Source: Cytospora piceicola (lineage: Eukaryota > Ascomycota > Sordariomycetes > Diaporthales > Cytosporaceae). From it: a DNA stretch of 64,000 bases. Shown piece after piece: positions 26,265 to 46,299 of the stretch (position 1 is the stretch's first letter; each line of letters starts with the position of its first letter). The notes beneath the pieces are model-generated. The model saw only the letters and a list, made by a program, of their open reading frames with translations. It searched no databases and was not told the DNA's origin. The position numbers were made by a program, and so were the translations under genes. The stretch covers positions 248,001 through 312,000 of the forward strand of contig JALQBC010000038.1 of the NCBI GenBank assembly GCA_023375675.1, given 5' to 3'.

Positions 26265-26935
26265 TTTGTATGTGTATGTGACGTTGTTGTTCTCAGAGTA
26301 GAGAGGAAATCTTGAAAATCTGCGACTTCCCCAAAAAGTTCCTTTGGGAAATCCTTATCGATCTTATCGGAGATCCCTGCTCGGTGTGCACAGGCCAGCA
26401 TGTCCCCGCCATTCTGCTTCTGGACTGCTGCTGAAGCGCCTGTTTGGCAGGCGTGGGCAGGCACTTTGGCGCGATTTCAGTTGGCGTGGAATTTCGTCGG
26501 GAATTTCTCGAGAAACCACCAAACACCCAAATCACCAATCCCACCACTACTTTCGAAGGGGAACTAGTCAGAAACGCCACTCGCGATTGCCACCCAGGGG
26601 AGACCGTGTAGCTGTGACAGTTAGGATGTGATAACCATCTTCCACTGTTACTACCTACATTATTTTCACTACTGGTAGAGCCGAGTCGAGGCTGCGGCAC
26701 CCTTCGTTCTACACATACACATATACATACACATACATACTGCTGTTGCTAAAGGTGTGTGTGTCTACTTCCTTGGATCTTTTCTTCTGTCTGGCACACC
26801 CACGCAGGCACCCTCCAACCCGCCCCTTCCAACCACACAAGGTCTGGGTGGAACCTTTGGGACTGACTCGAATTATAGTAAACCTAGCAGTAATATTCGA
26901 CTTTGCGACAGAACAATACACCGTCTCAAGCCAGC
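26265..26935. promoter_or_regulatory. Divergent promoter region IMP4 / UPF1
   Basis: 671 bp between two divergent starts. It includes an ACATA-type microsatellite at 26711-26740 and pyrimidine-rich DNA before the UPF1 start. No TATA box or specific operator can be assigned. Confidence 0.5.
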
Positions 26936-29900
26936 ATGGACGCTGCTTTCAACCATGTTGGCAATCATCTGATCTCCGACTCCGCCGATACCATCAAGGC
27001 TGGTGGCTCTGATGAGCTGTCCAACATCGACCCTGATGAGAGCCTGCTTTACGGTAGAGCTGGTGGACGCAGGGGACTCGGAAATGGTCGCCGACGGGCC
27101 GACGACGACGATGGCGAAAACGAGACGATTGGCGACGACGACGACGACGAGAGCCTCGCAAGTGTCTCTCTTGGCGCCATGAAGGGAGTGAGCCTCAACG
27201 AGCCCGAGGAGGAGAAAGAGCTACCTGCGCATGCTTGCGCCTACTGTGGGATCCACTCACCTTCATCCGTTGTCAAGTGTCTATCTTGCAGGAAGTGGTT
27301 CTGCAGCGGTCGCGGCGGTGCCAACACCTCCCACATTGTAAACCATCTCGTCCGCGCACGACACAAGGAGGTTCAGCTGCACCCCCAATCTCCCATGCAG
27401 GATACTATTCTGGAATGCTACAACTGTGGAACCCGCAATGTCTTCCTTCTCGGCTTCATCCCGGCTAAGTCTGATACTGTCGTGGTTCTTCTCTGCCGTC
27501 AGCCATGCGCCGCCAGTACCTCTTCCAAAGACATGAGCTGGGACGTTTCGCGTTGGCAGCCACTTATCGAGAACCGTTCTTTCCTGGACTGGCTTGTCCA
27601 CCCTCCCTCGGACGCCGAACAGCTGCGCGCTCGTCAGCTGACACCGCCCACTATCGCCAAGCTCGAGGAGATGTGGAAGGAAGACTCCAATGCCACGGTC
27701 GCGGACCTGGAGAAGGGCGCGAACGTTGATGACGACCCCCACCCCGTGCTTCTTCGATACGACGATTCGTTCCACTATCAAAACATCTTCGGACCCCTCG
27801 TCAAGATGGAATCCGATTTCGACAAGAAGCTGAAGGAGGCACAATCCGAAGATGGGTTGGTCGTGAGCTGGACCATGGGACTGAACAACAAGCACATGGC
27901 CAGCTTTGTCCTCCCCAAGATGGAGTCAGGCGATGTCAAGCTTGCTGTTGGGGACGAGATGCGTCTTAAGTACAAGGGAGAGCTTCGCCCTCCTTGGGAG
28001 GGTGTTGGCTATGTCATCAAGATCCCCAACAACCAGAATGACGAGGTCATTCTGGAGCTGCGAAAGACAGGGAGTGACAAGTCCGTCCCAACTGACTGCA
28101 CCCACAACTTCTCTGCCGAATATGTTTGGAAGGCTACTTCGTATGATCGCATGCAGCTCGCCATGAAGACCTTCGCGGTTGACGAGAAGAGTGTGTCTGG
28201 CTTCCTGTTCCATAAACTGCTTGGCCACGAGGTCCAAGTCGCGCCGACGAGGCCACAGGTACCCCGGAAGTTCACTGCGCCACACCTGCCCGACCTGAAC
28301 AACAGTCAGATCAATGCTATCAGGGCCGTTCTCTCGCAGCCTCTGAGTCTGATTCAGGGCCCTCCTGGAACCGGAAAGACTGTCACCTCGGCAACTATCA
28401 TCTACCATCTGGCCAAGATGAACAGTGGGCAGGTACTTGTCTGTGCTCCATCCAACGTCGCTGTTGATCAACTTTGCGAACGTATCCACCGCACTGGCCT
28501 GAAGGTCGTGCGCCTGACAGCCAAGTCACGAGAAGATGTCGAGTCCTCCGTCAAGTTCCTTGCTCTACATGAGCAAGTTCGATCCCTCGCCTCTGACATG
28601 GGTTCGGAGCTGGGTAAACTTACGACACTGAAGAACGATGTTGGCGAGCTGGCCAGTCACGACGAGAAGAAGTTCAAGCAGCTCACTAAGGCTGCCGAGA
28701 AGGAAATTTTGGGCAATGCCGATGTGGTCTGTTGCACATGTGTTGGTGCGGGTGACCCTCGACTTGCAAAGATGCAGTTCCGCAGCGTCCTCATCGACGA
28801 GTCCACCCAGTCAGCAGAGCCAGAGTGTTTGATCCCTCTCGTCCTCGGCTGCAAGCAGATCGTGTTGGTTGGTGACCACAAGCAGCTTGGCCCTGTGATC
28901 ATGAACAAGAAGGCTGCCAAGGCTGGTCTCAACCAGTCTCTTTTCGAGCGGCTGGTGAAGCTTAACCACGTTCCGATCCGCCTCAACGTGCAGTACCGTA
29001 TGCATCCGTGTCTGTCCGAGTTCCCGTCCAACATGTTCTACGAGGGTTCTCTTCAGAACGGTGTCACCATTCAAGAGCGACTCCGCAAAGATGTTGACTT
29101 CCCGTGGCCTGTCGCTGAGACTCCGATGATGTTCTGGTCTAACGTGGGCAACGAGGAGATATCGGCATCTGGTACCTCGTACCTCAACCGTACCGAGGCC
29201 TCAAACGTTGAGAAGGTGGTGACCCGATTCCTGAAGGCCGGTGTCAAGCCTCTCGACATTGGTGTTATTACCCCATACGAAGGTCAGAGAAGTTACATCG
29301 TCAGCACTTTGCAAACTACAGGGACATTCAAGAAGGAAAGCTACAAGGAAGTCGAGGTTGCATCTGTCGATGCCTTCCAGGGTCGTGAGAAGGACTTCAT
29401 CGTTCTGTCTTGTGTCCGTTCCAACGACACCCAAGGCATCGGTTTCCTTTCTGACCCTCGTCGTCTCAACGTGGCCCTTACTCGTGCCAAGTATGGTCTT
29501 GTTATCATTGGAAACCCCAAGGTGCTGTCTAAGCATGAACTATGGCACCATCTCCTGGTTCACTTCAAAGACCGCAAGTGCCTCGTGGAGGGCCCGCTCA
29601 CCAACCTACAGACATCTCTCTTGCAGTTTGGCCGCCCCAAGACGAGTTACCGCCCGCAGCGATTCGGCCCTGTTGGCCAGTCAATGAACTACGGAACCAA
29701 CAGCCGATACGGTGGCACTGGGACGAATGGTTCGACTCGAGAGTTCGATTCGGCGTCCATGATGTCGTACATCCCCGACGACGTTTCCTCGATCCACGGC
29801 TCTGCACTCGGAGGTGCCGCCTTCAACTCAGCTTACCCTCACATGTTCTCCAGCTTCAGCCCTGACCAGTGGCCTGGACTCCCCGGCGTCGCCCCACCCA

Positions 29901-30235
29901 ACCGCTCCAACGGCAAGAACCGAGGTCGGGGTACCGAGAGCGTCGCAGGCGAGAGTGTGGCCACCTCTGAGTACACCGAAACGAGCGCCAGTGTCATTGG
30001 CGGAAAGGGCATCGGACAGGGTGGTGCGAGCCTCGGAGCAGGTCTGCATGATGCCGTCGGCGCTTCTCGTCCGACTTCATACAGCCAGAGCGACCGCCTG
30101 CGACAGTACGTTGAGGCTATGGGCGGTGGCCGGCTGGGACCCAGCAACGGTTACGGACGACGAGATGACGACGAGAAGAGCATCAGCACCGCTTTCCACA
30201 GCCAGCTCGGCGGCACTGGTTTCGACGGGATTTGA
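26936..30235 (+). CDS. UPF1: ATP-dependent RNA helicase Upf1 (nonsense-mediated decay)
   Basis: Single uninterrupted exon of 1099 aa, the expected Upf1 length. The Cys/His-rich zinc domain starts near residue 98 ([20 protein letters not shown], later [10 protein letters not shown]). The SF1 helicase core has Walker A GPPGTGKT (about residue 474), motif [15 protein letters not shown] (about 619), [31 protein letters not shown] (about 811) and [16 protein letters not shown]. The C-terminus is Ser/Gly-rich with TQ/SQ-like sites (SYSQSDRL), the type of tail phosphorylated in animals. Upf1 detects premature stop codons on terminating ribosomes and drives mRNA decay in the cytoplasm. An acidic stretch ([17 protein letters not shown]) lies before the zinc domain. 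The start is the first ATG; upstream frame extension has no ATG. Confidence 0.97.
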
Positions 30236-33200: not shown

Positions 33201-34550
33201 GGTTGGTAATGGACCGGCTGTGTTTTCTTCACTTTTACCCTCCAGCGAGCGGGCCTCGGGCGGGTTCATATTCCAAAATTGCATGGCATAGCGCTCAGTT
33301 GTGGCTATTTGATATCGCATATTAGTCGATTTCTCTGATTATACATATACATTTGGTGCTATCCGGTCTTAGTGACCGGAATGTCGTGATCCATCCATCA
33401 TATCGACCGGCCTGGAATACTGGATGTTGTTGGCTACAGCAGAATATATTGAAGTCGACCAGCCTCTTGAAGAGATTCGAATTGTTCTTTCCCAGGTGTC
33501 AGCCAATACCACACCTGGCAGTGTGGATAGCGGCGCAGGAGGAAAAGGAGACGGTGGTAGTCATCTTCCTTCGCCCTGGGTAATCAGCAAGTGTGACCTC
33601 TGCATTGCCAAAAGATATCAGCTTACAAGACAGTTCAATTTTCCCGGAAACCACGCCGTCTCCCTCCAACAACTCCTGTCTATATGCAACGCCAGTATTC
33701 TATATGCAACACCAGTACTGCTGCAGCCGTCACCCTAGCAATAGAGCTCGTTATCTTTTGGAACAATATCCGGGGCGTGAATGACCTCAACTCCGCGACG
33801 CAGCTCATAGCTCCCGTCATCAGCGGTGCGTAGCGTTCACATCTGGCTCTCGGGACAGAAGAGGGAAGTGAAGGCAATACATTCCCGCATCTCCCGAGCA
33901 GCAGTCGAGGAAGTGTACCAGCAGCAGTGGTAGTCTACGAAGCAGGAAGGAGACATAGGGTCGGCGGGACATCGACGGCACCATCGTTCCAGGAGGACAT
34001 CAAGGCGGTCTTCGAATATGGTCGACTTACCCTCCGTACATTTCTGGTGTCCCGCCCAATTTCCACGGCCGTGCCAACAGCGCTGTCATCACTTGATGGC
34101 CCCGCAGCTTCTGGACAGTACAATATGACACCGTCAGCTATGGCTGGGGTTGATGGTGACTTGTATCTTGGTAACCACGTCTGCGCCGAACCGGAACCGC
34201 CTACAATGCTCCCAGTCCCTCCTGCTAACGATTTGGGTTGCCTTCCACCCGAGCCTCCACTCACGGCAGCATAGATGCAGGGAGGGTGTCGATATCTTCA
34301 TTGTCCGAAGGGTCTTTCTTCCCGCCCGTTGGAGAGTGTCCTTCAACCTCTCCTCCGCTAGGTGGCTTTGTTCAGAAGGGAAAGGGCCAGGAATCGAAAG
34401 ACAGGCCATGAATACAGGAGATATCATCGTCACAGCTTTCCAAATTCAAGTGCCGGCTGCATATGGATGGTCGCGGCCTCGTGTCGTTAATCTTACAGCC
34501 ACACATGGGCCAGTCCCGACAAGTCCCAGAACAATGCCCCCCTTCCAGCT
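33201..34550. other. Convergent intergenic region, no gene supported
   Basis: About 1.35 kb between the 3' ends of the AhpC/TSA-like gene and the minus-strand hypothetical gene. A 13-17 bp near-repeat (TCTATATGCAACRCCAGTA) occurs in tandem at about 33679-33718. Open frames here have no domain. Confidence 0.5.
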
Positions 34551-35090
34551 TCACCCACCCTTACTCTTCCTTCTCGAGAACAGCCGACCAATCTTACTCC
34601 CGGTATTTCCCCTCAACGAAGGCTCCTCAGGCCTCTCCCCACCCCCCTCCCCCTCCTCACTCACAACCGCCAAGCCAGCAGCAGCAGCACCGCGGCCACC
34701 GCGACCAGCACCCCGCCCGGCCTCCCCATCCACCACCTCGCCGCCACCACTCCTCGCCCAGCCCCCCTTGGCCCTCAGCCTGCTCACCCGGACCTCGAAC
34801 CGGTCCCTCCCCTCCTCGCGCGTGACGCACCCGCCCACGTACAGCCCGTCCCTCTCGAAGTGGACCGCAGGCTCGCTCATGAGGCCGGGGCCATTGACGT
34901 CCTCCTTGGCCTCCTTGGCCTCCCTGACGCAGTGCGCCCGCGCGGCCGCGTTGGCCGAGGCGGCGTCGTAGAAGAAGGCGGCGCCGACCGGGGCGGAGAG
35001 GTGGCCTGTCTCGTCCTGTGGTGTGTAAAAGTCCCGACGAAGGATAACGTATGTTGTCGATAAGTCGACGTTGAAGATGAAGTCGGTCAT
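34551..35090 (-). CDS. Hypothetical protein, 179 aa
   Basis: Single-exon frame with high GC at third positions, like its coding neighbours. The N-terminus MTDFIFNVDLSTTYVILRRD looks like a compact folded segment of about 110 residues, including GAAFFYDAASANAAARAHCV and VHFERDGLYVGGCVTREEGR. The last ~65 residues are Gly/Ala/Arg-rich and end in a basic SRRKSKGG. I do not recognise a family. A frame extension to 35186 offers an upstream ATG, but the added residues are low-complexity. There is no signal peptide or membrane segment. Both minus-strand neighbours are 0.7 kb or more away, so the context gives no clue to function. Confidence 0.55.
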   Translation of the reverse strand: MTDFIFNVDLSTTYVILRRDFYTPQDETGHLSAPVGAAFFYDAASANAAARAHCVREAKEAKEDVNGPGLMSEPAVHFERDGLYVGGCVTREEGRDRFEVRVSRLRAKGGWARSGGGEVVDGEAGRGAGRGGRGAAAAGLAVVSEEGEGGGERPEEPSLRGNTGSKIGRLFSRRKSKGG

Positions 35091-35776
35091 GTGGGACGGT
35101 GATGATATTGGTGATTGTCTGTGGGGGGATTTTGTTTGCGGCCGCGGGTAATAGCTGGATTCCCCTTCCGAGGGTCTATGGTTCAAAGGGCACGGAGTAT
35201 TTTCATTACTTCATTTGAAACGAACGGTAGGGAGAGCAGAGGTAATGCGTTTGTTAGTGTCATGTGAGTAATTGGTTCCTCAACTGCAGATTCTCTTGCG
35301 AGACATGCATCAAAGAAGAGAAACCATGATGACGAACGAGATAGTATCCATCGCCGATACAATCAACGAATAGTTTATCATCCAGATCGAACACATCGTA
35401 ATAGCAAGGAAGCATACAGTAAATCCATTCCCGGAACTAGCAAGGATTTGTCCGTCAAGGCGTAGGCGGCCGACGGCTTAGACCATTACTCGATAAAACT
35501 TCGTTTGGGGGTTTCTCATGGGTATCAGTAGCACCCAATGGGCAGGCCCCAGTAGAAGTTCTAAATACACAGATGTGTGTGCAAAAGGATCTGTTGCTGC
35601 AATAGGACCCATTGTGTTTTGAATCTCGAGTGTTGTCTCTGTATCTAAGCTAGACTCATCAGCTTGTCAAACCTGAAGGTTGAGTTCAAATCGTATTGCG
35701 ACAACATGGCCCATCCTTGTACAGCAAAGTCGCTGTGGCGGAAATAGCAAGCTCAAGCAAACGACCAGATTGACTC
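35091..35776. other. Intergenic region, no gene supported
   Basis: About 0.7 kb between the start of the hypothetical gene and the end of the interrupted host gene, both on the minus strand. It presumably carries a promoter and a 3' UTR. Nothing else is recognisable. Confidence 0.5.
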
Positions 35777-36333
35777 TCAAAGATTCTCCTCCGTCTCAAG
35801 TGAGCCAAAAATGGATCCTTGTTGCGCTCGATCCGACAGGGCGTCCTCTTCGAACTCTTCGATAGGGTCACTGCCATAGTTTGGTAGCTTCTTGATGTTT
35901 GCCCTTCCATCGCTCTTCCGCGCGGGCCGCCCGCGCATTGGATTTCTACCCCTAATTTGTGCAGTTGACAACGCAATGTGTCTTCGTTCGTCGACAGGAC
36001 CAAGCTTCTTACCCATGAACAATTTTGGTCGCGCAAATTTGTATGCTTCACTTGAATTACCGTGCTTCTCGAGTTGATGTGGTTGAAATGAGAGTGGCGA
36101 TTGGTCTGTGTCGGTGGAGAAGGTATCGATCCCTATGGGCTTCATCAGACTGTCTACCAGGTCTGTCTGCGCCATTGAAGAAGAGTTCACAGAACCAGCG
36201 GTCGCTCGATCAGTTTGCATAGTTGTATCCGAGAATTGGATTTCTGAAGTCAGTAACGGCGACGAGGCTCCCGTAGTGGCTACGCAACTTGCCGAAGCTG
36301 CGGTCGAGAGTTCGGTAGCAAGATGCTAGCAGG
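35777..36333 (-). pseudogene. 3' remnant of the host gene split by the copia element
   Basis: Minus-strand frame of 182 codons from a TAG at 36328-36326 to the natural stop at 35777. Its frame is exactly that of the 5' part (42703-43792) once the element and one target-site copy are removed: CCG GAT ACC TGC TAG CAT. The only break in the rejoined frame is that TAG, 6 bp from the target-site duplication. A C-to-T change at CpA (CAG to TAG) would explain it as RIP leakage. The encoded segment is Ser/Thr-rich then basic (RGRNPMRGRPARKSDGR) and ends with an acidic tail (DPIEEFEEDALSD). It has no promoter of its own now. Loss of the C-terminal ~180 residues from the gene product is expected. Confidence 0.75.
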
Positions 36334-36338
36334 TATCC
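36334..36338. repeat. Target-site duplication, left copy (TATCC)
   Basis: TATCC directly precedes the TG start of the left LTR and is identical to the 5 bp directly after the CA end of the right LTR (42698-42702). Copia elements usually make 5-bp duplications. Confidence 0.9.
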
Positions 36339-36504
36339 TGTCACACGTAATATATACTCGATTAATATGTTAATGTATTGTCTCGTACCCCGCTTACTCG
36401 GGTACGCTAATTTCTATATTAAATATATCCCGAAGTTAATTATATAACTTACTTATTTATACAGACCGAGGTATTTCCGCAGGCACCTTTACTACCGTTT
36501 AATA
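36339..36504 (-). repeat. Left LTR (3' LTR of the element), 166 bp
   Basis: Aligns end to end, without gaps, with 42532-42697. I count 21 mismatches and all are transitions. Starts TGTCA; its inner end is TTAATA where the other copy has CTGACA, consistent with C-to-T and G-to-A change. Confidence 0.93.
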
Positions 36505-36949
36505 CACCCTTTAGAGGAAGCTATCTACAGATAGGTTTCTCTGCGTAGGCCTTTTTTTTAAAGTGTTAACCTTTATAAAAGGGTAAGGTAAGTAAGGCTT
36601 ATTATAGCTATATAGCTAACTATATTTAGTAATATCGTCTACGAAACGTGTTTCTTTTCTTTTTATTTACTATTACGTAGTTATTACTACTACTACTACT
36701 ACCGTAGTAGTAGTAATAATAACAACTAATAAAGCTTTAGCAGTTTTCTTTATACGTTCCTTTTTAATCGTCTGTATAATGCTTTTCTATTTTAAAAAGG
36801 AAGTAGCCGAAATAGTTAACGATATATTCTTTACTAAGCTAAGTCTTGTTTTAAAGCAGGCTACCTTTATATATCTTCTTATATTTTTATCCTTTATATC
36901 TTTTCTAATTAGTATATAGCTTAACGATATTATCGTCTGTTTAAACGAT

Positions 36950-37065
36950 AATAACGACGATAAAGATAAAGATAAAGACGAAAATATAAACGAAAACGAG
37001 AACGAAGTTAAGAACGAAAACGAAAAAAAAGATAAAGATAAAGGTAAAGGTAAAGGTAAGGCCGG
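36950..37065 (+). repeat. Purine-rich GATAAA / GAAAAC low-complexity tract inside the element
   Basis: About 115 bp of GATAAAGATAAAGA-, GAAAACGAGAAC- and GGTAAAGGTAAA-type repeats on the plus strand, the strand opposite to the RT remnant. Read on the plus strand it would be Lys/Asp/Glu/Asn-rich. Its place near the 3' end of a minus-oriented copia element has no clear role. Confidence 0.7.
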
Positions 37066-38679
37066 CGTAAAGCTTATTATAAGTACTTCTTCTATAATTC
37101 CTTTTACTAAATTATCTATTAATACTTTTATTTTAAAGAAATAAAGAGGTTAAAAGCTAGCTATAGCCTTTAACTACTTTTTATACTCCGTATATAATAT
37201 AATCTACCGGGATCTGTATTATATCCTACCGGCGTTACGTTTACTAGTAAACGTATTAAGGGTTTATAAACTCTTATTATAACTAGGCTAAAGGTTATAT
37301 AAAAACGTATATATAGTATATATAAGTTAGCTATATATACCTTTTTATACCGGTTAGTATAAAGCCTAAAATCTATACTTTCGATTCCCTTTATAAAGGA
37401 ATTCGAAAAGGCGTTTAAACCGATAAAAGCGAAGTAGAAAAGGTATATCGTTATATATATACCTTTTTTACTAGTATTACAGCCGTTAAAGCTACGTAAA
37501 AGTAAAAGGCTTTTTTAAACCTTTACCTTTAATCGGTAATTTAGCTATAAAGGAAAGGCTACCGACTTTAAGTATAGTAGTTTGTTTAAAAATAATATAA
37601 TATAATTTAAACGCTTTTATACGTAGGCCGGTATATTCTACGACTTTCTTTTTCTCTTTAATTCTATAATATATACTTTTATATATCTGTGTTAGATTAA
37701 TAGGTCTTTTAGCTTATTAATTACGTTATTTTTTAGGTCTTTTACTTATTATTTTCGAATTTTATTTTTAATATTAACTAGCTTAAGTTAAATAATAAAC
37801 TTTTAGTAGTTAATAATAGAAAGTACCTTAGTTAGTTTATTAGTAACTATATTTAAAATATTAGCGTAATTAATATATAGATATCTTTACTAGACTTTTT
37901 ACTATAGCTAGTAATTATATATATCTATATAACGAAGTTTTATATTAAGCTAGGTAATTTCTTTATTTACTAGCTTAATCGTTTATATATTATCGTATTA
38001 TAGCTAGATAGTTTACTAATTAAACTAAACTTTTAGTTTTCGTATAAACCGATATTAGAAAAGGACTTCTTTTAATACTTAAATAAGAGAAAGTAACTTA
38101 GCCTTTATAGTAAAGGTAGTTATAGTATCTTACTTATTCGCCCTTTATCCGATATATTTATTAAATAGTTTTATTACGTATACTTACGAACTTCGACGGT
38201 TTAAGCTATTATCGGTAAAAGATAAATCGTTCTATACTTTAAAAAAGTCTGCTCTTTTTAATTTAAAAGCGAAGGCTAATATTTAGATAAAATATATTAA
38301 AACCCGATCGGCTATTTTATAATACTATAGCTTTAGATTAATATTAAACTGTATAAGCCTAAATACTATAAAAGCTATATTTAGCTTTATAATTACTACC
38401 GTGTATAGAATTAATCCGATTTTATATTAATATAAATAGGCTAATATAATAAACGCTTTATCCGGATATAGTAACAGTTTTGCTAAAGTTATTAATGTTT
38501 TATATAAAGCCCGCTATTATATCTATATAAAAGATAATATTTTATTTATATAGTCTGCTTAAAAAAGCTAGATCTTTCGTATAGCTTTATCCCGAAGTAT
38601 TATAATACTTAGAAACTATTAAAGGTTATCTCCGCCTATAATTTTATATTATAACTTTAGCTGTTTAACAGCTTCCTTT

Positions 38680-39010
38680 ACTACTTTCTTATCTTTATTT
38701 TAATATATAATAACGATATTATTTACGTAAAAGAAGATTAGTACGTTATTTTATATAAAATAATAAGGCTTATAAAAAACTAAGGTAAAACCGATCTTTT
38801 TAAGTATACGAGTAAGTTTTTTTTATTATAGTAATAAAGATTCTTTAAGTTTATAAAAGGCCTTTTTTAATAAAAGGACTTACCTTAGCTTTCGATATCC
38901 TTATAATATACGTATATAGATCTCTTTATTAAGTAATACGTTAACGAAGGTATTAACCGTATTATATTAAATAAGTTCGAAATCGAACTTAGCTATAATC
39001 GTTATTACTA
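38680..39010 (-). pseudogene. Reverse-transcriptase remnant of the copia element
   Basis: In reading order on the minus strand, AKFDFELI, a stop, YNTVNTFVNVLLNKEIYIR and then GYRKLR can be read (about 39005 to 38885), followed by FFYVNNIVIIY (about 38745 to 38705). These correspond to the conserved copia RT blocks. Amino-acid differences are those expected from C-to-T and G-to-A change (for example Asp to Asn, Gln to stop, Ala to Thr). The polymerase is dead. Confidence 0.75.
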
Positions 39011-42000
39011 TTTTAAATAACTTTTTAATAAAGGTAGCTATATAAGTTTTTTTTATATCGCCTTTTTATTATTAATCCCTTCGAATAACTAGCCGGGCTT
39101 TATATTTAGTAAAAAACCTGTACTTATTATATTTATAGATATACACTTATATATAGTTTAGTAAAGTCTTTTTAACTACTACGTCTGCTGCTTTTTCTTT
39201 TTATAACCGTATTTCCTTATAGCTTTAAAGATAGTCTTTCTCTGTTTACTTAAATAGGTCTCTATAAATATATCTGTAACGTTTATAAAACGTCTTTAAA
39301 GCTAAAGGCAGCTCTTATCTATATATTTTCTATCCTTTTTATAAACGGTATAATATTGTACCCGGATTTATACTCTTTATCCTTTGAGATAACCTCCTTA
39401 TCTTTCTCTATACTATACCCTTTATAATAGTCTTCCCGTTTCGTTATCTTAACTAGTTCTATAGTCTTCTTGTATTAAACGTTAAAATTTATAAGCGTAC
39501 CTTATTAGTTTAAAGTACTGTTTTATCTCTTAAACACTTTTCGTCTGTCTTTATTATAAAAGCCGTAAAAATAAAGCTATATAACGAAGGAAGAAATACC
39601 TTTAAAGTTAGCAGGTATACGTACGCCTTACTTAGAAAGTAATTAGTCTCTTTAGTATACTCCTTTACTGTTTTATTCCTGCTTTTATATACTTCCGCTT
39701 TTATATTAACTTTAACGTAAACGATACTACTTTTAAAATCTTTTACTTCTTCTTTTTTAAGTAAAACACTTATTAAGTTTTCCTATAGGATTGTCCGTTA
39801 GTATAGGTATTCTTATAATATATCGGTATCTACTTCTTAGATATTATCTTATAAGTAGTTTATTTAGCTATTAAACGTTATTTTTTTATTGAAAATAATA
39901 TTTTTTAAAGCGTATACCTTATTAGTTTAAAAGTTTTATATCTTATAAATATTAGTCGATTTATATCTTATAAAGTAGCTTATCTAAGCTTAAAGGTTTA
40001 TCTTCTTTAGTCGCTCTGTTTTACTTTATACTATAAGTATTATTATATATACTTTACAGCTAAATACCTATAGATAGTATACTTAAAGGCAGAAATTAGT
40101 AAAAAACTTAACTATAAGTTTATTTTATTTTTTTAATAAGATTTTTTATCGTTTTTAGATATACTTCGAAAACCGGTTATATAAATATATAGCTGCCTTA
40201 ATTACTTTTCTTTAAAAGAAATTCGGAAATTTTATATAAACTATTATATACCTTGCTTTTGTAGTAACTATACTTTTCGAACGTTTGATAATATCGTTCT
40301 ATACTTATATTTAAAGTACCGAAGGCTTGATTTTAATATTATTATCGTTTTTTAGCTAGTTTTTTAACTATTATAGTTTAACAATTTCCTTATTATATTC
40401 GAAGATTTTAAATATTACTCCTTTATTCTTTATAGTTCCTATAAAAGATTTTAGTAAGCGCTTTAGCGTAGTTTAGTCTTAGTTTTAAAGGTAATAGTTA
40501 TATATTACCTCTGTTTTACAGTAAGTAAAGAAAGCTACCGCTTTATATCTTTTAAGGTTTTTTATAATATCGATAAAATCTAAAGCGAAGCGCTAGATTT
40601 TCTATAGTTCTTTTCGAAAAACCTAAAATACTTATTTTTTTATCTTCTTTATAGTATATTCGTTATATTTATGTATATAAAGCTTTTACCTTATTTAAAC
40701 ACCTCGATATAAGCTAGTAACTTTATTAAGTCTTTTTAGCTTTAGATGTTTTAGCTGTAAATACTAGAATTTATTTAAAACCTGTCGTTTTATTTTCTGT
40801 AACGTTATATTAAATAAAGCTGCTCTTTCCTTAAACGTAACCTTAGTTATAATATTTAAAAGCCTTTTTAATATATTTTATTTATATTTTATAAAGAAAG
40901 TATATAAAAGGGAGTTATCGTAGTTTTATCTAATAGTATTTTAGTCCCTTTTATTATTTTAATAGTATCTTTTTTCTTAAAACTAGTTAAGTAGTATTAA
41001 GTTATATACGAATTCCTTATAAAAGGCTGCGTTTTTAACTTTAAACACTTTTAAGCTGTTATCCTTTTATATTTTAATATCGACGTTTTTTTACGAAAGG
41101 ATAAGTACTTCTTTATTTCTAACGATTACGTATTTAAAAAGGTCTGCTATTTTAACGTTTATAAACCGATAAATATTATTAAAAATAGGTATAGTTATAT
41201 TTAAGTTTAGTAAGGTTAATTATATAAATAAGTAGATAGATTCGATCTTTGTATTTTAAAACGTTATCTATACCTTAACTAAAAAAGCAGCTAACGTATA
41301 TCCTTATACTAGTTATTGTTTACCTGCCTTTTAAATTTTAAGCTTTTTAATTCGATAAGCTAGGTTTTTATTTTATTAGATTTTCTGTTTCGTTACTAAA
41401 ACGTCGAGATAATATAGTTTAAACTATAGAACGGCTTTTTTAAAGAATATTACTTAGTAGTTTTATAAACGGTACGGTTTCTTATATACTTTATATAACG
41501 CTTTACTATATTTAAGTAAAGATTCTTTTTTACTTTTCTTTTATTTTAAGCCGTTCCGGGCTTATTTTCTTCTTAGTTTACCTTTACTTTATTTTACCGA
41601 TTCTTTTATTAAAGTTTCCTTTTAACTATATTAAATACTATATACTATATATACGCTACGCTTTATTCGGTTATATAAGGCGACTGCCTTTACTATTAAA
41701 TATAGTTTTTAATAGAAGTTTACTACTATATAGATATAATTAAAACTACTGTTATTTATTCTTAACTAATTAGTAATTTTATAGCTAGTTACTTAGCCTT
41801 TAAGATAATTTATATAGCTAAATACTATAAATAAATAGTCTGTTTAGCTATAAGCTTTAAAGACTTAAGAGATTTAGTATTTATTACTTATAGCTATTAC
41901 CTTTTCTTACTCTTTAATTTAGGTTATAAGTCGTTTTTACGTTATTTTATAGTTTAAAGCTATTAATATTATATTATAATTATCCGAGGTATCGGCTTTT

Positions 42001-42531
42001 CTGTTTTATATCTTTAGCTACGTTATTATTAGTAGATTAGCGTACTAATTATTTAAATTCCCGGTATAGTAGTATATTAAAGTATAGGTTTCTATAACCG
42101 AATTTAACACTTAGCTTTATATTATTACCTTTCGAGTTTTATATATATTTTACCTTTTCGTATTAAACTTATAGTCCTTTTATACTTATAAATAGTTTAT
42201 ACGGCTAGCTATAAATAGTTTCGAAACTTTAATAACCGGGCTTAAAGCTTTACGTTATACCGTTATTTAATATATTAAGGTAGTTCGTTTAAACTCTTTT
42301 AATAGTAATGCTTATAGGGAAGATAGTTAAGCTTTCTTTCGTATTATAGCTAGTTAAATATCTACCTGTTTTACCTTAATTTTAAACTAATTCTCGAAAG
42401 TATCTTAGTCTTTAAAGGTCTTATAGATAACCGTAGTACTAGCTAAGGTATTATAGGTTATTATTTCTTTTTCGAGTAAGTGTATATACGATATAACGCG
42501 ATTAACTCTTATAGTATATAAGACTTTTAAT

Positions 42532-42697
42532 TATTATACGTAATATATACTCGATTAATATATTAATGTATTATCTCGTACCCTGTTTGCTCGAGTATGC
42601 TAATTTCTATATTAAATATATCCCGAAGTTAATTGTATAACTTGCTTATTCATACGGACCGAGGTATTTCCGCAGGCACCCCTGCTGCCGTCTGACA
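42532..42697 (-). repeat. Right LTR (5' LTR of the element), 166 bp
   Basis: Partner of 36339-36504. Its outer end keeps TGACA, while its inner end is TATTA where the other copy has TGTCA. The host reading frame of the interrupted gene runs into this LTR and ends at a TAA at 42614-42612. Confidence 0.93.
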
Positions 42698-44557
42698 TAT
42701 CCGGTCTTGAAACCTCGTCACCAGTACTAGAGGAGGAAATTGATGGTCGAAGGTTCCTCGCTGTTTCTTTCCTCACATCTTCACGAATTTGCTCGAGATT
42801 TTCGTCAGAGCCACTGAAGACGAATCTCTTCCACATGTCGTTTTCATCCTCGGGTGTGCATTGCCTGGTCACTTGTACAGTATGTGGTATGATTTGTACA
42901 CTCAAAGGAGCCTCTGGCTCCTGGTATTCCAACGGCTTTTGGCTTTTCGTGGCTGCTCCAGCGGTTGTCTCCTCGGTTTCAACCTTACGCAGGCGCTTCA
43001 AGAGTGTATCATAGTGGGATACGTTCGACGGCGATGAAGAAGGACTCGGAGAGCTCGGGACTACGAGCAACGATACCTCGTCCGAGCTCTCGTGAAATGG
43101 GCTGCTTCTTTGTGTCTCCCTTCCGTCAGCCTGAGAGTTTTCAGAAGTGTACGCCATGGTTGTGTCTGGAAGTTCAGGGTTGGGGTCCTCTGTTGCGGGA
43201 ATGACCTGTCCATCATCTGGTGCATTTTCACTGCCCACAATGCCTGGGTCATCTGGTCGCAGTAAAGTCATGAGTGATTGGAATGGTGGTGCTTCTTCCA
43301 TGTCTCCGTCTACACTGTTGCTTCCCATTACTGGGATATGCGTGGTTGCTTCCTCTTGGTCTGTATCACGAGGTACATCTGTCTGACCCATCTGGCTGAC
43401 ACCTGGCGAGACCATTCCATCAAAGGGAATTTCTTCCTTGCCAGAGGTAGGGAAGTCGTTTGACGACTGAAACTCGAGAGGACCGGTAACGAAGTCTCTC
43501 CATGCCTCGTTCTCCTCGGCTTCGGCGGAAGGAATGAAGGGGCGTTGGGTTCCGACCTGAGCTACAGTACTGTCTGCATTGTCCTCATCATCTGAGTACG
43601 GAGGAAGGAGCTGCAGCAATGCCGGTCGGGTAGGAACAGGATGGAACAACAACGGAGAAGTCGGCATATTGTTGATCTGGTCCGTTTCATTGCTTGACCA
43701 ATGGGTGCGTGCGTCAGAACCAGAAATGGAGACATCGTCTCGCTTCCCACACTCCCCTCGATGATTATGGTGCCGAAAGTCATGTCTCCCTGCTAGAATT
43801 CATGTTAAACCATGCATTAAACAGATGATAACCATGGTGTTCCTTCTGACAGACAGCAGGATTGGTGCTCCTGTCTTCTGGTCGCTGGTTTTGCACACGT
43901 ACCTTGAGAAATCGAACCATCTCCCTTGTGACTCCGGCTGATATTGGAGCTGCCACCCAACGTTCTTTCGCGACTGCCAACTCGAACTCTCAACTTTCTA
44001 AGCGAGATCGGGGTCGAAGCATTTGCGCCACCTTGTGCTGCCTTGCTTCGCCTGTCTTGCTTGACACCAAGGAGTTGTCGTAGTTTGTGGCGAGAAGACT
44101 CATGCCGACCAAGACGTGCACCCCATGCGTAATTAGGTGAAGCCCGTGGTCCGGAGAACTTCATCTCAATGGGCTTCTGGGCACCAGTGCCTACCCAGTC
44201 GCCCTTGAAAAGTAGCTTATGCCTCTTCTGGCGCAACCCCTGAACATCAGTCTGTTGTCGTCGAAAATGGGCTGTGTCTGACGGATTCGCATTGACTTCA
44301 GAGAAGTAACGGCTGGATTCCAGCGCATCACCGTGTTTCTTGGGAGATAATTGTGCTGGCTTCGACGAAGCATGGCGAACAAGAGAATTTGTTAGACCTG
44401 GGCGTGCGAGAAAAGAAATGGAAGGCGGACTGTTTATCACGTTGGCGTTCAGCAGGCCCGAACGAGCTTTTGCGAAGTGCTCTTTCTGACGTAGGACCGT
44501 CTCTTTGCCCTTCCTGCCGCGAGAATGGCGATTCAGAGTGCCTTCTGTCCAATTCAT
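42612..44557 (-). CDS. Host gene of unknown function, truncated by the copia insertion (5' part)
   Basis: Two exons: 44557..43903 and 43792 onward. The intron has donor GTACGT and acceptor TAG, with a possible alternative CAG three bases on (NAGNAG). Exon 2 reads through the target site at 42698 and ends 28 codons inside the LTR, giving a predicted 611-aa protein instead of about 768. The N-terminus (MNWTEGTLNRHSRGR, then RQKEHFAKARSG) resembles, from memory, the start of many uncharacterised Pezizomycotina proteins. The rest is Ser/Pro/Glu-rich and basic in exon 1 (RKLRVRVGSRER), probably disordered and perhaps nuclear. There is no recognised enzyme domain, signal peptide or membrane segment. 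Whether the truncated product is made is unknown. The gene is divergent from the nitrilase gene. Confidence 0.75.
42698..42702. repeat. Target-site duplication, right copy (TATCC)
   Basis: Identical to 36334-36338, immediately outside the right LTR. Confidence 0.9.
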
Positions 44558-45246
44558 GATGGAAGACAAACGAGTCGAATCTGAACAGTCAAGACAGTAG
44601 GAGGGAGACTGATAGTGTGTGAAACCTTGATGGAGACAACGCTGAAGCGCGATAGAGAGTCACAGGAAGTACAATGGAAAACGGACCCAAGATACGATCA
44701 AACCGCTGCGATCTTGAAGAAATACAGTTATGTTGTTTTCTTTGGTAGATCGACTACGGACTGTTGATTCGGAATCAATCGATAATTGCGAGTTGACACT
44801 CTTTGGAATGTTGTTGGATTGGCTATACCGACTTTGCAATAGGTATTGCTGTTGAAAAGACTTTTTTGTGTGCCATCATCTCTGCTAGTTTCCGATATAG
44901 TTGAGGAAGGAGCTACAGTCTTTGAGGTTGAAGAAGGCGCGCCATTGCCATTGCCATTCAAGGCTCAAGACTCAAGGGCTCAGTGGTCAAGACTCCAGGT
45001 GCACGGGCCACAATTGACTTTCGTCCTGGGAGTGGCACGTGCGTTTGTTTTCATTCAAGAGGACAGTGCGCGTCACAGTACTCTATCAGCCTCGCACATT
45101 ACCACCCGCCCCTCCATCCCGATACCGATGCGGGGGAAGCTCTTATCTCTTGCAGCTCCAATGTCTCAACCAGCGCCGTCCAGCACGCAACACAGGACAG
45201 ACAGGGACCCAGGCACTCACACACCTTCCTCCCACCACCACCGAGA
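44558..45246. promoter_or_regulatory. Divergent promoter region, interrupted host gene / nitrilase
   Basis: 689 bp between two divergent starts; both promoters are expected here. The nitrilase frame is open back to about 44983 without an ATG, so 44983-45246 is read as 5' UTR. Confidence 0.5.
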
Positions 45247-46299
45247 ATGCGAACAGCCTGGAGGACGTTTCGCACCCTGATAACAACCGCAGCCCGCCCG
45301 ACATTCCCGCAAGCCCATCTGAAACCCATCAACTGGTGGTTCCGCACAATGGCCTCCTCGACTCCCAGCCCCGTCCTGAAGAAGCCCGTCAAGCTCGCCT
45401 GCATCCAGCTGGCCAGCGGCGCCGACAAGGCGGCCAACCTCGCGCACGCCCGCGACAAGGTGCGCGAGGCCGCCGCCACGGGCGCCAAGATCATCGTGCT
45501 GCCCGAGTGCTTCAACTCGCCGTACGGGTGCGACTACTTCCCCTCGTACGCCGAGCAGCTGCTCCCGTCGCCGCCCACCGAGGCCCAGAGCCCCAGCTAC
45601 CACGCGCTGTCGTCCATGGCCAAGGAGGCCGGGGCGTACCTGGTCGCGGGGTCGATCCCGGAGCTGGTGTCGCGGGGCGAGGGCGAGGGCGACGAGGAGA
45701 AGCAATACTACAACACATCCCTGGTGTTCGGGCCTGCGGGCGACCTCATGGCCACGCACAGGAAGGTGCACCTGTTCGACATTGACATACCGGGCAAGAT
45801 CACGTTTCGGGAGTCCGACGTCCTGACCCCTGGCAACAAGGTCACCATCGTCGACCTGCCCGAGTACGGCAAGATCGCCGTGGCGATCTGCTACGACATC
45901 CGCTTCCCCGAGCTCGGCCTGATAGCCGCTCGCAAGGGGTGCTTCGCGCTCATATACCCTGGGGCGTTCAACCTGACGACGGGCCCGCTGCACTGGCGCC
46001 TGCAGGGGCAGGCGAGAGCTATGGATAACCAGGTGTACGTAGCTATGTGCTCGCCGGCGAGGGACCTAAGTGCCTCGTACCATGCATGGGGCCACAGCCT
46101 GGTGGTGGACCCGATGGCGCAAGTGGTCGTTGAGGCGGAGGAGAAGGAGACGATTGTGACGGCCGAGTTGACTGGTGATAAAATCGAGGAAACGAGGAAG
46201 GGAATACCACTGAGGGACCAGAGGAGATTTGACGTGTACCCGGACATAAGTCACGGAAAGATACAATTCACCGACCCGGGTCAGAAAGAAATCAAGTGA
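45247..46299 (+). CDS. NIT2: Omega-amidase / Nit2-type carbon-nitrogen hydrolase
   Basis: Single exon. The catalytic triad of the nitrilase superfamily is visible: Glu in IIVLPECFNSPYG, Lys in HRKVHLFDIDIPGK and Cys in VAICYDIRFPELG. The later block LHWRLQGQARAMDNQVYVA and the C-terminal IPLRDQRRFDVYP fit the Nit2/yeast Nit3 branch, which hydrolyses alpha-ketoglutaramate and related omega-amides. Two in-frame ATGs matter. From 45247 the protein is 350 aa with an Arg-rich leader without acidic residues (MRTAWRTFRTLITTAARP), typical of mitochondrial targeting. From 45349 (MASSTPSPVLKKPVKLACIQ) it is 316 aa and matches the usual family start. Both ATGs have A at -3, so dual targeting is plausible. 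The gene is convergent with spermidine synthase, 224 bp away. Confidence 0.9.
   Translation: MRTAWRTFRTLITTAARPTFPQAHLKPINWWFRTMASSTPSPVLKKPVKLACIQLASGADKAANLAHARDKVREAAATGAKIIVLPECFNSPYGCDYFPSYAEQLLPSPPTEAQSPSYHALSSMAKEAGAYLVAGSIPELVSRGEGEGDEEKQYYNTSLVFGPAGDLMATHRKVHLFDIDIPGKITFRESDVLTPGNKVTIVDLPEYGKIAVAICYDIRFPELGLIAARKGCFALIYPGAFNLTTGPLHWRLQGQARAMDNQVYVAMCSPARDLSASYHAWGHSLVVDPMAQVVVEAEEKETIVTAELTGDKIEETRKGIPLRDQRRFDVYPDISHGKIQFTDPGQKEIK

Follow-up and report, generated by a model that had tools for sequence, protein, structure and literature searches.

The window, a stretch of 64,000 nucleotides from Cytospora piceicola, contains a minus-strand gene of two exons that is interrupted within exon 2 by a full-length copia element with RIP-type mutations (Table 1). 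Base-by-base reading of the element led to a length of 6359 bp with LTRs of 166 bp each, TG opening the left LTR and CA closing the right one, the inner ends being altered, and with TATCC on both flanks, identical in 5/5 bases. A repeat search of the window detected a single long direct repeat of 165 nt, 88% alike and 6193 bp apart, and the two LTRs differ at 21 sites, all of them transitions. The position of the element inside exon 2, its length, LTRs and duplication, and likewise the coordinates of the two exon 2 pieces, were confirmed as described in an earlier note made from the letters of this DNA.

Table 1. Features of the split gene, the inserted element and the neighbouring gene (positions of the window)
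Feature	Position	Strand	Basis
3' part of host gene, TGA end, conserved C-terminal block	35777..36333	-	base reading and homologues
Left target-site duplication TATCC	36334..36338	.	base-by-base reading, family ends
RIP-mutated copia element	36339..42697	-	coding strand inferred from sibling copy L012
Left LTR, 166 bp, most RIP-type changes in inner half	36339..36504	.	base reading, paired LTR counts
Reverse transcriptase (RVT_2) region	38535..39149	-	placed by alignment with sibling L012; window copy without direct match
Right LTR, 166 bp, most RIP-type changes in inner half	42532..42697	.	base reading, paired LTR counts
Right target-site duplication TATCC	42698..42702	.	base-by-base reading, family ends
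Exon 2, 5' part, right TATCC included	42698..43792	-	base reading and homologues
Intron, 110 bp, GT...AG	43793..43902	-	base reading
Exon 1, from ATG	43903..44557	-	open frame; P0001 residues 1-230 at 74% (match extends past exon end)
Carbon-nitrogen hydrolase (nitrilase) open frame	44932..46299	+	neighbour; adjacent locus tags in two Cytospora mali records

The 5' part of the gene (583 residues) has 62 homologues with a best protein match of 65% identity, and those with names include proteins of Cytospora, Diaporthe, Gnomoniopsis, Coniella, Xylaria and Colletotrichum. Searched alone, the 3' piece (182 residues) matched 60/62 of these homologues at E <= 1 and 58/62 below 1e-3, its best matches lying near the C-terminal ends (73% over 178 residues of P0001 and 71% over 181 residues of P0010). 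The earlier note had considered homologues that end at the LTR junction and a 3' part belonging to a different gene: the homologues do not end there, they run through both pieces, and the 3' part is shared by nearly all proteins that match the 5' part. All genome matches to the host gene (3/3) are at the split locus, and no second copy of it turned up. Two records of Cytospora mali list the homologue and the nitrilase under adjacent locus tags (VP1G_05778/05779 and VM1G_09959/09958), which matches the order in the window, and the Diaporthe amygdali homologue is five locus tags away from UPF1 (N8I77_001971/001976). Because homologues span both pieces, the genome has this sole locus and the synteny is conserved, the two pieces represent one gene in its ancestral place. 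The split gene is flanked in the window by a UPF1 helicase (26894-30235) and the nitrilase. The protein belongs to a conserved Sordariomycete family without a name, with VM1G_09959 and N8I77_001971 as examples: no Pfam family was detected in the three window pieces nor in 35/35 homologues scanned, NCBIfam gave a single match, far below the cut-off, among four homologues, and a profile search led to no solved structure for the family.

To describe the state of the element, a RIP index (TA/AT minus (CA+TG)/(AC+GT)) was calculated in 500-bp bins. It was 1.39 to 1.77 across the 12 bins of 36501-42500, 0.16 and 0.01 in the two edge bins in which element and flank are mixed, and below 0 in the four bins of 34001-36000 and the six bins of 43001-46000. 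Together with the transition-only LTR differences and the loss of CpA/TpG, this points to a RIP-type decay of the window element that is restricted to the repeat and spares its flanks, and the description of the element as RIP-mutated was thereby upheld. Each of the six frames of the element contains 161 to 240 stops. At other copies of the family, an index above 1 was observed on both sides of L035, to the right of L016 and to the left of L037; in contrast to the window copy, some copies thus adjoin further mutated repeats.

When the genome (43.6 Mb, 99 contigs) was searched with the left LTR, at least 40 scored matches among 73 candidates were obtained. The 29 stretches fetched gave 20 full copies with both LTRs, which together with the window copy make the 21 copies counted here; nine stretches were left uncounted, eight with one LTR only (L028, L030, L032, L033, L034, L038, L039 and L040) and L036, which overlaps L035. 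For L035, the first two of three LTR-like matches were taken. These three matches follow each other in a row at L035/L036 (contig C78), two of them 187 bp apart, which suggests two adjacent or nested copies. At the true ends, the 5-bp duplication is perfect in 19/21 full copies and agrees in 4/5 bases in the remaining two, one of them L016, for which a perfect duplication results only if the ends are shifted; the duplication in the window is thus more than chance. The 20 other full copies show 83.5-87.0% identity to the window element and differ from it by 813-1025 transitions and 3-31 transversions, and two of them show 3 transversions and no gap at all over 6359 bp. As the LTR pairs contain one transversion in 3320 site pairs, the copies of the family look young, and their divergence appears to be almost entirely of the RIP type. 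Most elements measure 6335-6365 bp, with L022 (5919 bp) and L024 (6455 bp) outside this range, and L024 also has the most LTR differences of all (36).

RVT_2, the copia reverse transcriptase, gave 11 matches in the genome, one of them inside sibling copy L012, and no direct match in the window copy. It is from the match in L012 that the window element takes its label as copia, which agrees with the earlier assignment. For the integrase (rve), no match was detected in the fetched copies, and a single genome match at E <= 1 is located on another contig. One sibling, L027, was considered as a second insertion into a gene, the flanks being stop-free over 330/390 and 387/390 bases at first look. 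This was rejected, as those frames of 110 residues or more that meet the element diverge from it on opposite strands, and the two longest frames in the wider flanks (528 and 466 residues) stop short of it.

If the element and one duplication are taken out, the pieces of 655, 1095 and 557 nt add up to 2307 nt or 769 codons. The earlier note had rejoined 43792..42698 with 36333..35777 in one open frame of 768 codons plus stop; the phase is indeed kept, but the frame is not open, as codon 586 of the 769 is a TAG (36328-36326, minus strand), the second whole codon past the junction. The table of open reading frames agrees with this, its 3' frame starting only at 36325, and apart from the TAG the frames of both pieces are without any other stop. 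For comparison, the two window pieces were added separately to an alignment of 27 homologues, in which P0002-P0004 (named Cytospora) and P0001, P0010, P0013 and P0014 (grouped with them by similarity) were taken as the Cytospora-type set. The TAG is aligned opposite Gln in 5/7 and Glu in 2/7 of these. In the interval bounded by the last full codon ahead of the element and the first codon past the TAG, all seven have 32-33 residues and the window has three codons, the TAG included; in the protein alignments the window hence lacks 29-30 codons where the element inserted (36326-36333, minus strand). At this gap, the remaining 20 homologues have 25-35 residues in 19 cases and none in one (P0016). 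The models of P0016 and of P0005, a protein of Cytospora leucostoma outside the alignment, likewise do not contain the stretch, which may reflect either a genuine loss or a misplaced intron in the models; the stretch may be prone to both. A search with the peptide of the missing stretch gave no genome match at E <= 10 and only weak matches in the window (best E 0.058). A control peptide of equal length, which is an easier target than the gap peptide, was found in the genome at 85% identity.

An intron that masks the TAG was rejected on the donors inspected by eye, since splicing from a GT 38 nt upstream would leave an intron of minimal length, and residues kept by the Cytospora-type homologues would be lost with any intron at this place. 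The TAG may also be a base-call error in the assembly. It is found 11-13 bp outside the left end of the element, and insertion, gap and stop are crowded into about 13 bp although the gene measures 2.3 kb, a proximity that would be improbable if they were independent. An otherwise coherent gene, as the earlier note had assumed, is not supported by the host sequence beside the insertion. A clean insertion into a fully intact gene of 768 codons without any other change would be in line with the perfect duplication and the kept phase, but it is highly improbable given the in-frame TAG and the 29-30 codons that are absent compared to 7/7 Cytospora-type homologues. Recombination between two elements about 90 bp apart, with deletion of the stretch between them, would link the element with the gap. 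In that case the outer duplications would stem from different sites, and yet they match in 5/5 bases (chance about 1 in 1000), which makes this scenario scarcely credible. Overall, the locus is very probably explained by a once-only gene into which a full-length copia element has recently inserted, splitting it, with later mutation of the element by RIP. The element would have arrived through an ordinary integrase insertion, followed by RIP mutation. From the 5' piece, at most 583 residues and 28 further residues from the LTR would be made, without the conserved C-terminal block, and since no product of the 5' piece would contain this block, the allele should be null or truncated.

The duplications of the family allow a view on how the TAG might have originated. 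Two of the 21 are discordant (L016 and L035), each by one C-to-T change at CpA in the left copy, on the side of the TAG, and 18 bases in CA/TG context in the duplications of both sides are still unchanged. RIP-type changes thus reach a few bases beyond the left LTR as a faint spill into the flank. In the other copies changes outside the LTR are found within 5 bp only, and the TAG lies further out than any of them. Both a C-to-T change at CpA, as is typical of RIP, and a deletion that joined two half codons are possible origins of the TAG.

For the order of events in this one genome, we tentatively and weakly favour three steps. A variable linker would first have lost 29-30 codons in frame and without harm, the element would then have inserted within a few bases of the point of this loss, and the TAG would have arisen last via a spill of RIP a few bases past the LTR. 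Linker loss is placed first because this leaves the longest time for it and needs no luck with the frame. Nearly as good is a single deletion that fused half codons into the TAG, either before or after the insertion; the deletion point is outside the duplication, a few bases from its left copy, which allows the deletion to predate or to postdate the element. If the deletion is older, the loss of the 29-30 codons and the fusion of the half codons had already broken the gene, and the element then entered a pseudogene. One event would account for both gap and stop, and the duplication outside the deletion point would allow such an age. Such a state must have been short-lived, however, as there is no stop besides the TAG and none of the tests shows faster evolution; we therefore regard this as a doubtful, if conceivable, course. 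Branch lengths are 0.263 for the window gene versus 0.241 for P0001 and 0.219 for P0003, and no significant speed-up of the window gene was detected in 12/12 Tajima comparisons (p >= 0.092). Relaxed constraint in the 3' part was rejected, as three Fisher tests were likewise not significant (p 0.39 to 1.0). The identity of the 3' part to the Diaporthe-type homologues P0006, P0008, P0009 and P0012 was lower for the window in 4/4 cases (49.5-52.5% versus 52.0-57.9% for P0001-P0004) and not lower with P0018 as reference. In one set of four, the window has 45 private residues versus 20, 28 and 16, an excess that may be due to its deeper branch. If the deletion is younger, the element entered an intact gene, and a later deletion outside the duplication took the 29-30 codons and made the TAG. 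Both duplications could have survived this, the deletion point being a few bases outside the left one, but the young family leaves little time and the kept phase would be luck, so that we consider this order unlikely. Under the favoured order, as with an older deletion, changes to the allele, or its breakage, may have preceded the insertion, and the role of the element as first breaker is not proven. The locus can hence not be taken as the direct evidence of insertional inactivation that the earlier note had seen in it, the allele perhaps having been altered or truncated by the time of insertion, and that interpretation as a whole is partly supported.

The paired LTRs of the family also indicate where within the repeat RIP-type changes accumulate. 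As the two LTRs of a copy are identical in sequence at insertion, base context is controlled in a paired comparison. In the 20 copies with 166-bp LTRs (L021, with LTRs of 167 bp, was excluded from positional counts), an A/T state in one LTR only was observed at 417 sites, 381 in the inner half and 36 in the outer half, and position for position the inner half had at least as many as the outer half in 20/20 copies. At LTR positions 1-40, no site was changed in the left LTR alone and 107 in the right LTR alone. The unpaired profile of A/T from the edge is noisy, with fractions of 0.13-0.42 in the left and 0.07-0.42 in the right LTR over the outer 80 bp, and rises unevenly further inward. Leakage of RIP into flanks is described in the accessible part of PMC7296669, and no account of a sparing of the outer LTR was found in the accessible parts of the open-access papers searched, including PMC12543289, PMC4858203, PMC7296669 and PMC10787394. 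From the counts in these copies, we consider it rather likely that the RIP footprint in C. piceicola is drawn back from the repeat edge, an LTR being hit far more rarely in its outer half than the other LTR is in its inner half, where it has the matching sequence, and that a faint tail of a few bases beyond the element is able to bring a stop codon into an adjoining gene and may have made the TAG here, the rest of the flanking gene being clean.

In fungi, it is nothing unusual for a RIP-silenced element to split a gene, and transposon-split genes are readily taken as proof of damage by the transposon. Here, the homologues reveal two more lesions no further than about 13 bp from the insertion, so that more than one cause and order may be considered. 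The value of the locus is in these adjacent lesions and in the gauge of the RIP edge, as the paired LTRs and duplications of 21 copies form a natural measure of RIP at and beyond the edge of a repeat that works without an outside reference genome.

Compared to its Sordariomycete homologues, the window gene is similar over both pieces and in its synteny, but it is split, contains the TAG and is 29-30 codons short. With the Ty1/copia elements of filamentous ascomycetes, as far as the available part of PMC5445492 describes them, the family shares the TG...CA ends of the LTRs, the 5-bp duplication and RVT_2 (in the sibling copy), and RIP-like decay has been reported for fungal copia in the same source. 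RIP on the LTRs of full copies is likewise known from crapaud, an LTR retrotransposon of Podospora (PMC10787394); that work, in the part available, is about LTR subfamilies and solo LTRs, and a split into outer and inner halves does not appear in it. Compared to RIP in Neurospora, as presented in the accessible parts of PMC4858203 and PMC7296669, the RIP-type changes of the window family, known here from sequence alone, seem to thin out inside the outer ends of the repeat, whereas the transition-only decay, the loss of CpA/TpG and the confinement mostly to repeats are common to both.
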